Shown here piece by piece: positions 14,342 through 21,533 of a stretch of DNA of 21,533 bases. Both the position numbers and the translations under genes were made by a program. This DNA is from Clostridia bacterium (GTDB lineage Bacteria > Bacillota > Clostridia > Christensenellales > Borkfalkiaceae). The notes under the pieces were generated by a model. The model had not been told where the DNA came from, ran no database searches, and saw only the letters and a program-made list of their open reading frames with translations. The first letter of the stretch is position 1, and each line of letters opens with the position of its first letter. The stretch covers positions 1 to 21,533 of the forward strand of contig JAFOHH010000121.1 of NCBI GenBank assembly GCA_017421905.1, given 5' to 3'.

Positions 14342-17227
14342 TTACTGTTGTTCCTTGGTAATATAGCATTCGATGATATCGTCGTTTTTGATATCGTTGA
14401 AGTTTTCGATGGAAATACCGCATTCGTAGCCGGTGGCAACTTCTTTAACGTCGTCCTTAAAGCGTTTGAGCTGGCGTACTGCGCCTTCGCAAATCATAAC
14501 GTCGTTGCGGTAGATGCGGAGCTTACCTTCGCGTACCATTTTACCTTCGATAACGTAGCAGCCTGCAACCGTACCAACACCCGTAATACGGAAGGTATCG
14601 CGTACCTCTGCCTTACCGGTGAGCACGTCTTCGTAGCGGGGAGCAAGCATACCTTTCAACGCTCTTTCTACGTCTTCGATGGCTTCGTAAATGATGCGAT
14701 AAAGTTTTACGTCTACACCGCTGCGTTCGGCCATAACCTTGGCTTTGCTATCCGGGCGCACGTTAAAGCCGATGATGATGGCTTTAGAGGACTGCGCGAG
14801 CATAACGTCCGATTCGGTAATAGCGCCGGCTGCGGCGTGGATAACGGAAATTTTAATTTCGTCGTTGGAAAGTTTAACAAGCGATTGCTTTACCGCTTCG
14901 ACAGAGCCTTGAACGTCTGCCTTTACGATGATGTTAAGCGACTTGATGTCTTGCTTGAATACGTCTTCGAGCGTTACCTTGGAGGCGTTGTGAATCATGG
15001 CCTCTCTTTCTTTATTGCGGCGTTCTTCTGCAACGAGCTTGGTGAGCTTTTCTTCTTCTACTGCAATTAAGCTATCGCCCGTGTTGGGAACGTCTTCTAA
15101 GCCGAGAACGGATACCGCGGTAGCGGGCTTAGCTTCTTTTACCGTTCTGCCCTTGTCGTCGATCATAGCGCGGACGCGGCCAACAACCGTGCCTGCAACG
15201 ATGTTATCGCCCGTTTTGAGCGTACCGTTTTGCACGAGGACGGTTGCCATAGGTCCTTTGCCTTTATCGAGCTTGGCTTCGATAATAACACCCTTGGCTT
15301 TACGCTCGGGATTGCAGCGGAGCTCTTTCACTTCGGCAAGTAAAATAAGGTTATCGAGAAGGGTATCTACACCCTCGCCCGTTTTTGCGGAAACGGGAAC
15401 GAACATAACGTCGCCGCCCCATTCTTCAATTAAAATGCCGTGCTCGGTAAGCTCTTGCTTTACGCGGTTGAGGTTTGCCGTGGGCTTATCGATTTTGTTG
15501 CATGCTACGACGATGGATACGCCTGCAGCTTTTGCGTGGTTGATGGATTCTACCGTTTGGGGCATAATACCATCGTCTGCGGCGATAACGATAACAGCGA
15601 TATCGGTTGCTTGCGCACCGCGCATACGCATTGCAGTAAACGCTTCGTGGCCGGGGGTATCGAGGAAGGTGATTGCCTCTCCCTTAACGGTTACGGTGTA
15701 TGCACCGATGTGTTGGGTAATGCCGCCGGCTTCGCCTTCTGCAATATTCGCGTGGCGAATACGGTCGAGAAGGGAGGTTTTACCGTGGTCTACGTGGCCC
15801 ATTACCGAAATAACGGGAGGACGTTTTACGGTGTTTTCGGTAGCGTCTTTTTCTTCTACCGCTTCGTTTAAAATATCTTCTGCCGTCTTATCGAGTTGCA
15901 GCTCGAGCTCGATGCCAAGATCGGCAGCGATAAAGCCTGCGGTATCGTAATCGACGGTGTCGTTAATCGTTTTGATGATGCCTTCCTTAAAGAGGCGTTT
16001 GGTAATTTCTACTGCGGTGATGCCGAGCTTTTCCGAAAGAACCTTTAAGGGGATAATTTCGGTGTTAATAACTGCCTTTTCAATTTTAATTTGCGGCGCA
16101 ACTTGCTTGGTTTTTGCCTTTTTTACGCGCAGTTTGCGATAGCCGCTTTCCTTATCGTCGAAATCTTCAATGGTGAGTTCGCGAGAAATGAGAGCGCGCT
16201 TGCTAACGGTGTTCTTTTTATCGTCGTACGTTTTGCCGTCCGCCTTCTTTTTAGCAGGACCAAAGGATTTGGTGGATTCTTTGGGGAATGCCACCATATC
16301 GGGCTTGCCCATTCCGCCTGCCGGACGTGCGGGACGTGCCATAGGACGAGGAGTTGCCGCTCCTTGATCTTTATCGCCAAAGGGACGTTGGGGACGGTCG
16401 CCGTAAGGACGTTGGGGACGCTCGCCGCCCGTGTAGGTGGGACGATCGCCGTAGGGACGTTGGGGACGGTCTCCGTTGTTGTATTGGGGACGGTCGCCGT
16501 AGGGGCGTTGCGGACGCTCGCCATTGTTGTATTGCGGACGGTCGCCGTAGGGGCGTTGAGGACGTTCGCCATTGCTGTATTGCGGACGGTCGCCGTAGGG
16601 ACGTTGCGGGCGTTCGCCGTTGTTGTTTTGGGGACGGTCGCCGTAGGGACGTTGCGGACGTTCGCCGCCCGTGTAGGTGGGACGTTCCCCATTGTTATAG
16701 GTGGGACGTTGGGGACGTTGTTCTGCATTATAGGTGGGACGAGATTCGCGCTCTGCGGCAGGCTTTTCGGCTACGGTTTTTTCTGCTGCGGGTTTTGCGG
16801 CAGGCTTTTCTTGAGCGGCAGCTTCGGCTTTAGCCTTTTCTGCGGCTTCTGCTTTTGCCTTTTCTGCAGCTTCGGCCTTTGCCTTTTCGGCGGCTTCTGC
16901 TTTCGCTTTTTCGGCGGCTTCTGCCTTTGCTTTTTCAGCGGCGGCTTTTGCGGCTTCTTCTGCTTGCTTTTTCGCCTCTTTTTCAGCGGCGGCCTTGGCC
17001 TCTTGCTCTACCTTTGCTTTTTCTGCAGCTTCGGCAAGTTCTTTTTCTGCCTGTTCTTTTTTAATGCGGGCAAATTCCTTTTCTTTTTCGTCCAACTTTT
17101 TCAGAATTTCGCCCATTTTGCGCTTTAAATCGGCAGACTTCGTTTTAATTGCGTTAAAGTCTGCGCCGGATTTCATTTCACCGATGGTTTTAATATTTTC
17201 AAACTGTTTTTCTTTGTTGTCAGCCAT
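14342..17227 (-). CDS. infB: Translation initiation factor IF-2
   Basis: 961 residues. GTPase that places fMet-tRNA on the 30S subunit and promotes subunit joining. From the N-terminus: a charged coiled-coil region (about 38-160) with five exact AEKAKAEA units (97-136); a disordered Arg/Pro/Tyr/Gly-rich region (162-300) with six 16-residue repeats (188-283); the conserved IF2-N helix bundle (about 390-450); the G domain with G1 GHVDHGKTS (477-485), G3 DTPGHEAF (523-530), G4 NKID (577-580) and G5 SAK (613-615); then domains II-IV, ending in the fMet-tRNA-binding C2 domain. The nearest Shine-Dalgarno (GAGGAG) is about 14 bases from the ATG, unusually far. It sits in the nusA-infB operon. Confidence 0.97.
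16379..16666 (-). repeat. Tandem 48-bp repeat, six units, within infB
   Basis: Six contiguous units encode [13 protein letters not shown] followed by a variable triplet (NNN, YSN, YNN, YNN, YTG or RPF in the last unit), exactly residues 188-283. All units keep the frame. DNA copies differ mostly at third positions and in the variable end, which indicates repeated duplication under selection for the protein. Confidence 0.9.
16820..16939 (-). repeat. Tandem 24-bp repeat, five units, within infB
   Basis: Five perfect AEKAKAEA octapeptides (residues 97-136) extend a predicted long charged alpha-helix. Codons vary between units, so the peptide rather than the DNA is conserved. Confidence 0.85.
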
Positions 17228-19045: not shown

Positions 19046-19513
19046 TTAGTCGAAATCGACGCCCTGATTAATTTTTGCGATTTTATTGCGCGGAATGCGC
19101 ACGGGAGGCTTGCCTTCTACTTCTGCTACCGTAACCGTGCCCGCATCGAATGCAGTCATAATCCCCTCGAAGTACTTTTTGCCCTGTTGGGGGGAATATA
19201 ATTTGACTTCTACCTTGTTACCGAGGTTTTTTTCAAAGTCGCGCTCGGTTTTAAAGGGGCGGTCCAGCCCTGCGCTGGAAACGTTTAAGGTGTACGGCGC
19301 ACCGTAAGTGGGATCTAACTCGTCTAAACGCTGATCGATAATCGGGTGGTAAGCGGCGCAATCGTTTAAATCGATGCCGCCCTCTTTGTCGAGATAGATG
19401 GTTAAGGAAGGCTCTCTGCCCTGCTTAAACGCAACCTCTACCACTTCAAATCCAAACCCGTTTGCCACCTCTACGGCAAGGTTTTCAATTTCGGAAAGGT
19501 CTTTAATTTTCAA
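19046..19513 (-). CDS. rimP: Ribosome maturation factor RimP
   Basis: 155 residues from a TTG start. Needed for 30S subunit assembly. The N-terminal domain has EVVEVAFKQGREPSLTIYLD; the family signature YTLNVSSAGLDRPFKTERDF is present, followed by the SH3-like C-terminal domain (GNKVEVKLYSP, FEGIMTAFDAGTVTV). The frame stays open to 19561, but that upstream part encodes the arm of a terminator-like hairpin. TAGGAG seven bases before the TTG at 19513 and the usual RimP length settle the start. First gene of the rimP-nusA-infB operon, with its own promoter inside the end of the upstream gene. Confidence 0.93.
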   Translation of the reverse strand: MKIKDLSEIENLAVEVANGFGFEVVEVAFKQGREPSLTIYLDKEGGIDLNDCAAYHPIIDQRLDELDPTYGAPYTLNVSSAGLDRPFKTERDFEKNLGNKVEVKLYSPQQGKKYFEGIMTAFDAGTVTVAEVEGKPPVRIPRNKIAKINQGVDFD

Positions 19514-19527
19514 AATTTTACTCCTAT

Positions 19528-19562
19528 AAAAAGATTTGAGAGCGGCTGTTGCCGCTCTCAAA
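19528..19562 (-). terminator. Terminator/attenuator hairpin in the rimP-nusA operon leader
   Basis: TTTGAGAGCGGC pairs perfectly with GCCGCTCTCAAA around AACA, followed on the minus strand by TCTTTTT. It ends just before the rimP Shine-Dalgarno TAGGAG. It lies downstream of the promoter at 19590-19618, so it can terminate both read-through from the PolC-like gene and the operon's own transcript. Confidence 0.82.
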
Positions 19563-19589
19563 TACAGTCAATCATATTTAAGCATCTAT

Positions 19590-19618
19590 ATTATACACTA
19601 TTTTTTTTAGTTTGGCAA
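19590..19618 (-). promoter_or_regulatory. Promoter of the rimP-nusA-infB operon
   Basis: -35 TTGCCA (19613-19618), exactly 17 bases, -10 TATAAT (19590-19595, perfect). The -35 box lies inside the last codons of the PolC-like gene. The predicted start is near 19583, giving a leader of about 70 bases that contains the terminator-like hairpin. Confidence 0.85.
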
Positions 19619-21142
19619 GCATTTTTTCATCTTTATTAGCTCTAAAAACATTTCTGCAGTGGCTACCGAGTCATAAACGGCGCGGTGGTGCTGAAATTCG
19701 ATGCCAAAATGGGCGCAAACGGTATTTAATTTGTGGTTGGCAAGGCGAGGGAGCTGCTCTCTTGCAAGCGGGAGCGTATCGATGCGAGGGTTATCGAACA
19801 CGTATCCTGCCTCTTTGCCGTGAAAACGGATAAAGCCGCAGTCGAAATCGGCATTGTGAGCAACAAGGATTGCGCCGTCTACGTACTTATAAAAGTCGCC
19901 TACCACCTCGGCAAAGGTGGGGGCATCGGCAACCATTTCGTCGGTAATACCGGTAAGCTCTACGATTTGCTTGGGTATGGGGCGTCCGGGGTTTACAAAG
20001 GTGGAAAAACCGTCTACCTGCTTGCCGTTTACAATGCGCACCGCACCGATTTCCGTAATGGCGTCGACAGAAGGAACGGTTCCCGTCGTTTCAAGGTCGA
20101 ACACGACGAAGGTTTTATTCATTAAGCACGCGGGGAGGTCCTCTTCTACGTCGAAAAGTGCCTTTTGGCGCACGGAGGTTACCTGCTCGGGCTTAACTAA
20201 AACGTATTCGGGTGCGGGCTTGCGCTTTTCCTTGGGGAGAGGCTTGAAATCTTCTGGGAAGGTACAGAGGTTTAGTTTATCCGCCGTGTAGCGGAGAGAG
20301 CCGCCGAATTCGTCGTAAGAGCCCATGGTTATGATGGAATCCCCTTCCTTAATTGCACGAACGCGCTCCAACGTGTTTTTGCGAGTGAAATAAGATACCT
20401 TGATGGTTTTTGTGGTATCGGTAAACTCGAAAATAAAGAAGGGCTTACCCTTTTTGGTTACCTTTTCCGTTACCGAAAGCACTCTGCCGGCGTGGACTAC
20501 GCCCTCCGTGGGAAAGGCGATATCCTCCATATACACCGCCGTGCGGGACATATTTTTATCGTCGATAGGGGTGAGATCCTTTACGTAAAAGGAGCGGAGT
20601 TTTACCGTTTCTACACGGAAATTTACGGTGTTGTTTTCGGGGAGCGGTCCTTCGTCCACTTCTTCCTTTTCCACCGAAAGAGAGCCTTGAAAACTGCCAC
20701 AGAAATTGCGGTATAGGTGATTATCGCACGCGGAAAGAACGCGGTTTTTTTCGAACAGCGCGTAGGTTGCGGGGGTTACGGCAATACGGTAGCGTTTAAC
20801 TGCGCCGCTGGCATCTGCGGTAACGTCCTCGGCACGCAGCTCTGCCGAAACGGCGTTTTGCGTACTTTTTAAGTAGGTATACACGGTGTGGGCGATAAGC
20901 TCCTCGTCCGCCACCTTTTTTTCTACTGAAAGCGTTACACCGAGAAAACCATCCGGAACAACCTCGTTAAAGGCGGAAAGAATGCGCTCTTGCACCGTTT
21001 CGGATACCGTTTTTTCGCAAAGAAAGGAAAAATGCACCGTTTTGCGCCGTTCGTCTACGATGACGTCGGTCAGCTTTAAGGTTTCTAATTCTTCGCTATA
21101 ATTATGTAGTTGTTCTAATATGTTGGTTAAAGTGTCGGTCAT
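19607..21142 (-). CDS. PolC-like protein reduced to N-terminal domain + OB fold + DEDDh 3'-5' exonuclease
   Basis: 511 residues, against about 1,430 for full PolC. An N-terminal PolC-like region (1-200) is followed by an OB fold (about 215-295, VLSVTEKVTKKGKPFFIFEF onward), a charged Pro/Lys linker (296-342), and a complete exonuclease domain (343-508). The exonuclease has D349 and E351 (FDLETTG), D434 (HNADFDCGF) and H486/D491 (HRAVYD). Both PHP halves and the polymerase are missing; the next 93 bases are promoter and leader, so no continuation is hidden. The linker holds QKALF (326-330), matching the QxxLF sliding-clamp motif. The ATG overlaps the ispG stop by four bases (ATGA), and the position is that of polC in relatives. 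Probable proofreading or repair exonuclease; role inferred. Confidence 0.85.
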   Translation of the reverse strand: MTDTLTNILEQLHNYSEELETLKLTDVIVDERRKTVHFSFLCEKTVSETVQERILSAFNEVVPDGFLGVTLSVEKKVADEELIAHTVYTYLKSTQNAVSAELRAEDVTADASGAVKRYRIAVTPATYALFEKNRVLSACDNHLYRNFCGSFQGSLSVEKEEVDEGPLPENNTVNFRVETVKLRSFYVKDLTPIDDKNMSRTAVYMEDIAFPTEGVVHAGRVLSVTEKVTKKGKPFFIFEFTDTTKTIKVSYFTRKNTLERVRAIKEGDSIITMGSYDEFGGSLRYTADKLNLCTFPEDFKPLPKEKRKPAPEYVLVKPEQVTSVRQKALFDVEEDLPACLMNKTFVVFDLETTGTVPSVDAITEIGAVRIVNGKQVDGFSTFVNPGRPIPKQIVELTGITDEMVADAPTFAEVVGDFYKYVDGAILVAHNADFDCGFIRFHGKEAGYVFDNPRIDTLPLAREQLPRLANHKLNTVCAHFGIEFQHHRAVYDSVATAEMFLELIKMKKCLPN

Positions 21143-21533
21143 ACTGTTTTACGTTGAATTTCCATTTGGAGCATCGTGAGGAATTCCTCCTCGATTTGCT
21201 CTCTTTTTACCGTTTTTATAATTTTGCCTTGTTTGAATAAGGCCGCGCCGCCCTTTGCGCCTGCAATGCCGAAATCTGCATCGGCAGACTCTCCGATTCC
21301 GTTTACAACGCACCCCATTACGGCAATTTTAAGGGGCGTTTTAATGCCGGAAACAAGCTCTTCTACCCGACGTGCCATTTCGATAGCGTTCCACTCGCAT
21401 CTGCCGCAGGTAGGACAAGCGACAACCTCGACGAAGCTTTTTTCCAGCCCGATGCTTTGCAAAATGGCGTGACCGGCAACGACCTCCTTTACAGGGTCTG
21501 CAGAAAGGGATACGCGAATGGTATCGCCAATGC
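21139..21533 (-). CDS. ispG: 4-hydroxy-3-methylbut-2-enyl-diphosphate synthase IspG (C-terminal part; 5' end outside window)
   Basis: Penultimate enzyme of the MEP isoprenoid pathway, a [4Fe-4S] protein. About 130 C-terminal residues are visible, starting with GDTIRVSLSADPVKEVVAGH. The cluster ligands and neighbours are present: VVACPTCGRCEW supplies two Cys, and MGCVVNGIGES supplies the third Cys and the Glu. Most homologues have NGPGE where this has NGIGE. The stop overlaps the start of the PolC-like gene (ATGA), so they are one transcription unit. The upstream neighbours are off the window; dxr and rseP would be expected. Confidence 0.95.
   Translation of the reverse strand, partial: IGDTIRVSLSADPVKEVVAGHAILQSIGLEKSFVEVVACPTCGRCEWNAIEMARRVEELVSGIKTPLKIAVMGCVVNGIGESADADFGIAGAKGGAALFKQGKIIKTVKREQIEEEFLTMLQMEIQRKTV

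Follow-up and report, generated by a model that had tools for sequence, protein, structure and literature searches.

What remains of a replicative polymerase gene when the part encoding the polymerase is missing, and what might the remnant do? The question is raised by a gene at positions 19607 to 21142 (minus strand) of contig JAFOHH010000121.1 from a Clostridia bacterium of the order Christensenellales, family Borkfalkiaceae in GTDB (assembly GCA_017421905.1); the 21,533 nucleotides of this contig are the window analysed here. An earlier note on this DNA, made from the sequence alone, had taken the gene for a free-standing proofreading subunit derived from PolC. We hold, with a probability of roughly two in three and on the basis of sequence comparison, that it is a polC gene reduced to a pair of N-terminal domains (NTD), an OB fold, a linker and an exonuclease, the product of which would act in trans as a clamp-tethered proofreader for DnaE1 in a clade without PolC polymerase. 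This polymerase-less, PolC-derived protein is called the short form or short protein below, and the genomes and families carrying it are called short-form genomes and families.

Structure and locus of the short protein

The open reading frame (ORF) starts with ATG, has a clean frame and encodes 511 amino acids (aa), in which the following parts were recognised:

19607..21142, minus strand: polymerase-less PolC derivative, whole gene (511 aa ORF; best curated model PolC; same architecture in relatives)
20663..21142, minus strand: two KH-like domains at the N-terminus, residues 1-160, homologues of the PolC NTD (hhalign with an alignment of PolC NTDs; model secondary structure)
20261..20500, minus strand: OB fold, residues 215-294 (sub-threshold PF01336 match at 218-290; model; alignment to 9qpc from residue 191 on)
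20120..20254, minus strand: linker, residues 297-341, where PolC has the first half of its PHP domain (sequence alignment)
20153..20167, minus strand: QKALF, residues 326-330, a putative sliding-clamp-binding motif (motif counts across relatives; QxxLF consensus from PMC12309361)
19625..20119, minus strand: DEDDh 3'-5' exonuclease domain, residues 342-506, with all five active-site residues (Pfam match, alignment)

The best NCBIfam model for the protein was PolC (PRK00448), although its 205 bits lie far below the full-length cut-off of 873, and the top sequence match among solved structures was the PolC exonuclease 2p1j of Thermotoga maritima (E 8.9e-36). Pfam RNase_T matched residues 346-499 (E 1.7e-39), while the OB fold (PF01336) scored 22.9 bits, below the Pfam cut-off of 27, and the PolC N-terminal Pfam families gave zero matches at E<=1. 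The NTD was instead recognised by profile-profile comparison (hhalign): the first 195 residues of 30 short proteins, a stretch that excludes the OB fold and exonuclease, were aligned to the first 225 of 28 PolCs at a probability of 97.9 (E 6e-13) over 155 colinear columns. The PolC NTD has been described as 'KH-like' (PMC3919608). An AlphaFold model (predicted local distance difference test, pLDDT, 87.7; predicted template modelling score, pTM, 0.55) resolved into two alpha-beta units, the OB fold and the exonuclease; the linker was its weaker part, and its top Foldseek match in the PDB was the PolC structure 9qpc (E 9.8e-21). Such fold searches rank single domains, and the lack of other matches to the NTD in them carries no meaning.

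Because the NTD match, the model and the OB and exonuclease matches agree, the domain order is that of PolC minus PHP and polymerase, which bears out the earlier claim that the N-terminus, OB fold and exonuclease follow PolC. Curated-model searches gave exonuclease and OB fold only, with no C-family polymerase core (palm, fingers), and neither Pfam search nor alignment with PolC found a PHP domain enclosing the exonuclease. All DEDDh residues are kept (D349, E351, D434, H486, D491) and about 5 residues follow the last exonuclease helix, which fits the note's description of a protein that ends with its exonuclease and is no simple truncation or frameshift. It had also described a linker of about 45 residues replacing the PHP half. 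The length is correct (residues 297-341, between OB fold and exonuclease), but the linker is not featureless, since it holds the QKALF that the note had missed.

Following the earlier note, we take the two genes on either side to be ispG and rimP:

21139..21531, minus strand: ispG, 3' part, which leaves the window (ORF list; tblastn neighbours in relatives)
19046..19561, minus strand: rimP, downstream of the short-protein gene (ORF list; tblastn neighbours in relatives)

The start codon of the short-protein gene overlaps the ispG stop codon as ATGA. With the window's ispG and rimP as tblastn queries, ispG was recovered next to 28, and rimP next to 26, of 29 short proteins. At PolC loci, where flanks were short and the queries distant, the counts were 28 of 31 and 10 of 31, two of the loci being overlapping ones from a single genome. 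The short-protein gene occupies the polC locus, in the position between ispG and rimP that had been claimed for it.

The DEDDh fold of the short protein was also near DinG, ExoX and RNase T in fold searches, and among DnaQ/epsilon-type models the protein exceeded the cut-off of the broad subfamily model TIGR00573 only, remaining below those of the epsilon equivalogs PRK05711 (106.8 of 196 bits) and TIGR01406 (106.7 of 222.7 bits). That a DnaQ- or DinG-type exonuclease took over the PolC locus or N-terminus is highly improbable in view of the colinear PolC NTD and OB fold, the synteny and the top sequence match to PolC.

Distribution of the short form and its companion polymerase

We drew 200 genomes from the host's order and grouped their families according to whether a PolC polymerase occurs in at least one member. 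It was found in 0 of 120 genomes from 16 families and in 74 of 80 genomes from 17 others (71 over the model cut-off and 3 in pieces: G070, G084, G194). For two of the 120 no PolC match reached E <= 1e-20; the other 118 matched at best with E 1.9e-53 (the host genome) or weaker. The polymerase domain PF07733 occurred once in 103 of the 120, twice in 10 and not at all in 7, whereas 68 of the 80 PolC-family genomes had at least three matches. Sampled genomes were mostly fragmented assemblies, and many of the 120 were rated 95-100% complete.

A profile of 29 short proteins gave long matches in 91 of the 120 genomes (two partial: G043, G138). The remaining 29 comprised 21 with a diverged copy, one with an active copy (G053, L268) and 7 in which the profile search found no full copy (G095, G106, G108, G114, G142, G154, G180), G114 having a piece at a contig end. 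To look for the short form outside the order, 391 genomes of the class were searched at E <= 1e-60. Among the matches listed, 15 were full-length, all from the host's order, and the other rows were exonuclease-only, in frames of 986 aa or more; 169 of the 391 genomes gave no match at this threshold. The active site was intact in 195 of 195 active-type short proteins checked, namely the 120 best matches of one database search and 75 from fetched loci (74 of them distinct). Where named, the best 120 database relatives are called 'hypothetical protein' or '3'-5' exoribonuclease'. Candidatus Coproplasma stercoripullorum is one of the named public relatives among the best 80 loci, as is an uncultured Christensenellaceae bacterium.

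The host assembly is itself fragmented (247 contigs, 79% complete, 5.6% contaminated), which might suggest a chimera, a frameshift or a decaying pseudogene. We consider the chance of this negligible, as 91 of 120 genomes, and named public records too, gave matches of the same architecture with its active site intact. The earlier view of a stable PolC-derived form is supported by its occurrence across 16 families.

No PolC polymerase was found in 6 of the 80 PolC-family genomes (G062, G086, G103, G121, G125, G155), five of which are 70-88% complete. The remaining one, G062 (family f11; L088, L138), is 96% complete; neither PolC polymerase nor short form was found in it, and the sole exonuclease frame found had 307 residues. 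It may represent a true, complete second loss of PolC without a short form.

The replicative polymerase had been predicted to lie elsewhere, and in the host genome the single PF07733 match indeed falls within a DnaE of 1196 residues, encoded on contig C54. This DnaE has PHP, polymerase, finger, HhH and OB domains, passes the cut-offs of two DnaE equivalog models and is 76% identical to the DnaE of a genome of the same genus (G001). By these domains, its unbroken set of PHP residues and its QxxLF clamp motif, it is probably a DnaE1. Most short-form genomes apparently have a single C-family polymerase, DnaE1, as judged from these searches. All 20 DnaEs examined from short-form genomes keep the nine PHP metal residues (motif as in PMC12926913) and three catalytic aspartates, and 13 of the 20 have Qxx[LM]F after residue 900 (QMSLF in the host). 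The host genome has a clamp gene, as do 8 of 9 genomes in which one was sought; the short protein, used as query, retrieved no further DEDDh protein from the host genome.

In a DnaE tree of 48 rows, calculated without the variable loop described below and without two truncated rows (L092, L094), short and full families were split on one branch (Shimodaira-Hasegawa-like approximate likelihood ratio test, SH-aLRT, 100). Because the two groups of families fall on either side of a single branch, the tree suits one loss of the PolC polymerase.

The loop, in the polymerase part of DnaE, measured 20-45 residues in 20 of 20 short-form-family genomes (L096-L115) versus 14-17 in 30 of 30 PolC-family DnaEs (L066-L095). 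The host DnaE was also considered as a contaminant, having stood beside family f28 and apart from f1 in a first tree; with more f1 genomes it became the sister of the G001 DnaE, and the idea was rejected. A trace of a changed replicase in AT skew was likewise dropped. Within the order, fourfold sites of the gene had a median skew of -0.167 in 49 short forms versus -0.028 in 31 full ones (p 3e-4), but GC at the same sites differed as strongly (p 2e-4). With named records added, some of them copies of sampled genomes, the values were -0.159 (n=80 short) versus -0.052 (n=73 full; p 3e-5) with GC alike (p 0.64); all of these statistics ignore kinship.

The linker motif and the proposed mechanism

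The sliding-clamp motif has the consensus QL[S/D]LF, more generally QxxLF, and in PolC lies at the C-terminus (PMC12309361). Among 124 short proteins nonredundant at 70% (L134 was left out, its exonuclease start having been missed by the motif search), Qxx[LM]F occurred in the linker of 72, where 200 shuffles gave 1.1 on average and at most 4, and the wider Qxx[LMIFV][FL] in that of 92, where shuffling gave 7.4 on average and at most 16. In 89 of the 92 linkers the motif starts 17-22 residues ahead of the end of the stretch. In the equivalent stretch of PolC the two patterns were found in 0 and 1 of 70 proteins, two of the 72 rows having been left out for the same reason as L134, whereas the last 60 residues of PolC carry them in 55 and 70 of 72. 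A clamp-like motif was present in the last 40 residues of 1 of 124 short proteins. Because 0 and 1 of 70 PolCs have the motif there, the linker motif does not, by this comparison, derive from the equivalent stretch of present-day PolC.

We propose the following scenario. The PHP and polymerase parts of polC would have been lost in a clade that relies on DnaE1, and a proofreader able to act in trans would have been retained. The short protein would bind the sliding clamp, which DnaE1 also uses, through its QxxLF-like linker motif and so reach the primer end, where it would remove mismatches left by DnaE1 as a 3'-5' exonuclease acting in trans. It might also contact DnaE through its NTD or OB fold. 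Distant kinship of the PolC NTD to domain V of tau has reportedly been noticed (a title cited in PMC3919608), from which contact between NTD and DnaE may be guessed by analogy, as speculation. The part from NTD through OB fold to motif could perhaps be an adaptor linking the clamp, DnaE1 and other factors.

An exonuclease of DNA repair or RNA processing, unrelated to replication fidelity, would agree with the fold's nearness to DinG, ExoX and RNase T and with the public records that call some relatives 3'-5' exoribonuclease. We consider it improbable, on functional inference only, because the protein has a PolC-derived NTD and OB fold, lies at the polC locus and carries a clamp-like motif, and no PolC polymerase was found in the same genomes.

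The proposed trans-acting proofreader is PolC-like in its locus, NTD pair, OB fold and DEDDh exonuclease, all colinear, but with 511 residues instead of about 1400-1500 it lacks PHP, polymerase and the C-terminal clamp motif, and its clamp-like motif sits ahead of the exonuclease. As a separate DEDDh exonuclease beside DnaE1 it resembles DnaQ/epsilon of Escherichia coli Pol III. Epsilon has a clamp-binding motif located after its exonuclease and an alpha-binding tail. The short protein differs in its PolC NTD and OB fold and in the motif that precedes its exonuclease, and the roughly 5 residues that follow leave no room for an epsilon-like tail. DinG-type exonuclease-helicases share the exonuclease fold and sequence class, but the short protein lacks the helicase part and has N-terminal PolC domains. 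PolCs without exonuclease occur in some Clostridia and Negativicutes (PMC3919608); these are likewise natural losses of a PolC module alongside DnaE1, but in mirror image, the exonuclease being lost and the polymerase kept.

Three polymerase sets have been described, namely PolC+DnaE1, PolC+DnaE3 and a set with DnaE1 but no PolC, to which DnaE2 may be added; some Clostridia are said to possess a single DnaE1 (PMC3919608, PMC12926913). The Clostridial PolC+DnaE1 set has been termed 'so far experimentally uncharacterized' (PMC3919608). In the literature excerpts searched, including for PolC loss, remnants and truncated forms, no description of a polymerase-less PolC proofreader was found, and matches on 'PolC-derived' concerned other subjects. 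If confirmed, this would add a novel design to the known replication machines of bacteria, one in which a replicative polymerase has been converted to an accessory subunit with its clamp motif at a new position. The clade would be a natural experiment, having lost the PolC polymerase and kept DnaE1 together with the proofreader and N-terminal domains of PolC, and would allow one to ask if DnaE1 is sufficient and what in PolC is indispensable. If PolC is truly absent, PolC inhibitors would lack their target in the gut bacteria of this clade and should leave them untouched.

Dead orthologues and the role of the protein

Several observations weigh against a clamp-tethered proofreader. The gene is retained but has lost its catalytic residues in family f16, in the greater part of f19 and in two genomes of f32. 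As defined, the linker motif is missing in 32 of 124 short proteins, mostly with V, E, A or I replacing Q, and among the 92 that match, the register is off in at least one (P0021). Qxx[LM]F was not found after residue 900 in 7 of 20 DnaEs of short-form genomes, and a DnaE with an intact PHP site may mean that another proofreader exists. The exonuclease-domain tree, named as a check in the earlier note (79 rows, 168 columns; 30 short and 28 PolC rows drawn from 74 and 72), has too little sequence to place the short family, and none of three arrangements was rejected (approximately unbiased, AU, test: p 0.114 for short with PolC, 0.455 for short alone, 0.313 for short with other DEDDh). The host genome is incomplete, and both the proofreading activity and the clamp binding are predictions from sequence.

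Same-locus orthologues with an erased active site but a kept linker Q are found at L250-L254, L259, L265-L267, L270-L272 and L274-L276. The 15 dead-type proteins read come from three families, and all retain the motif Q. Separate DnaQ-like exonucleases of 190-230 residues, without a clamp motif, were observed in f16 genomes (L256, L257, L258, L260, L261, L262), and such an exonuclease accompanies the dead-type copy in G192, G087, G215 and G204. Because dead-type copies were kept in three families, proofreading is not the sole role everywhere, and the scaffold of NTD, OB fold and motif probably has a role beyond catalysis. A function like that of DnaQ epsilon, as drawn in the earlier note, is likely where the DEDDh site is kept, but proofreading would not be the whole role across the group.

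These copies could mean that the protein has been conserved as a clamp-binding replisome adaptor (NTD, OB fold and motif), to which the exonuclease is secondary and from which it was dropped several times and replaced by other proofreaders. We regard this as unlikely. All 195 active-type proteins checked keep the active site, the figure of 15 of 15 comes from about three lineages, and for 6 of the 21 diverged copies the dead call is based solely on where the match ends. The association of dead-type copies with separate DnaQ-like exonucleases ignores kinship, and further proteins of two f19 genomes examined fail exonuclease motif patterns. Somewhat better, although still below even, are the chances of a fourth replicase arrangement, in which DnaE1 would be joined by a polymerase-stripped PolC serving as clamp-binding adaptor. 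This adaptor would mostly still proofread; in at least three lineages it would be a dead pseudo-exonuclease, often accompanied in f16 by a separate DnaQ-like exonuclease without clamp motif.

A promoter had also been reported within the end of the short-protein gene. A promoter-like site, TTGCCA-17-TATAAT (11 of 12), does overlap the 3' end (window 19534-19618, minus strand), but two sites of such quality were found versus 1.9 given by shuffles. In the same interval the site is followed, directly before rimP, by a 13-pair hairpin and T-run, possibly a leader terminator of the following genes. Rfam gave no family at gathering thresholds in the whole window, the four weak matches in 19400-19700 being far below the cut-offs. 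Further downstream, the ORF at 14342-17227, IF2-like by eye, has a run of near-repeats close to its N-terminus (window 16200-16750, minus strand).
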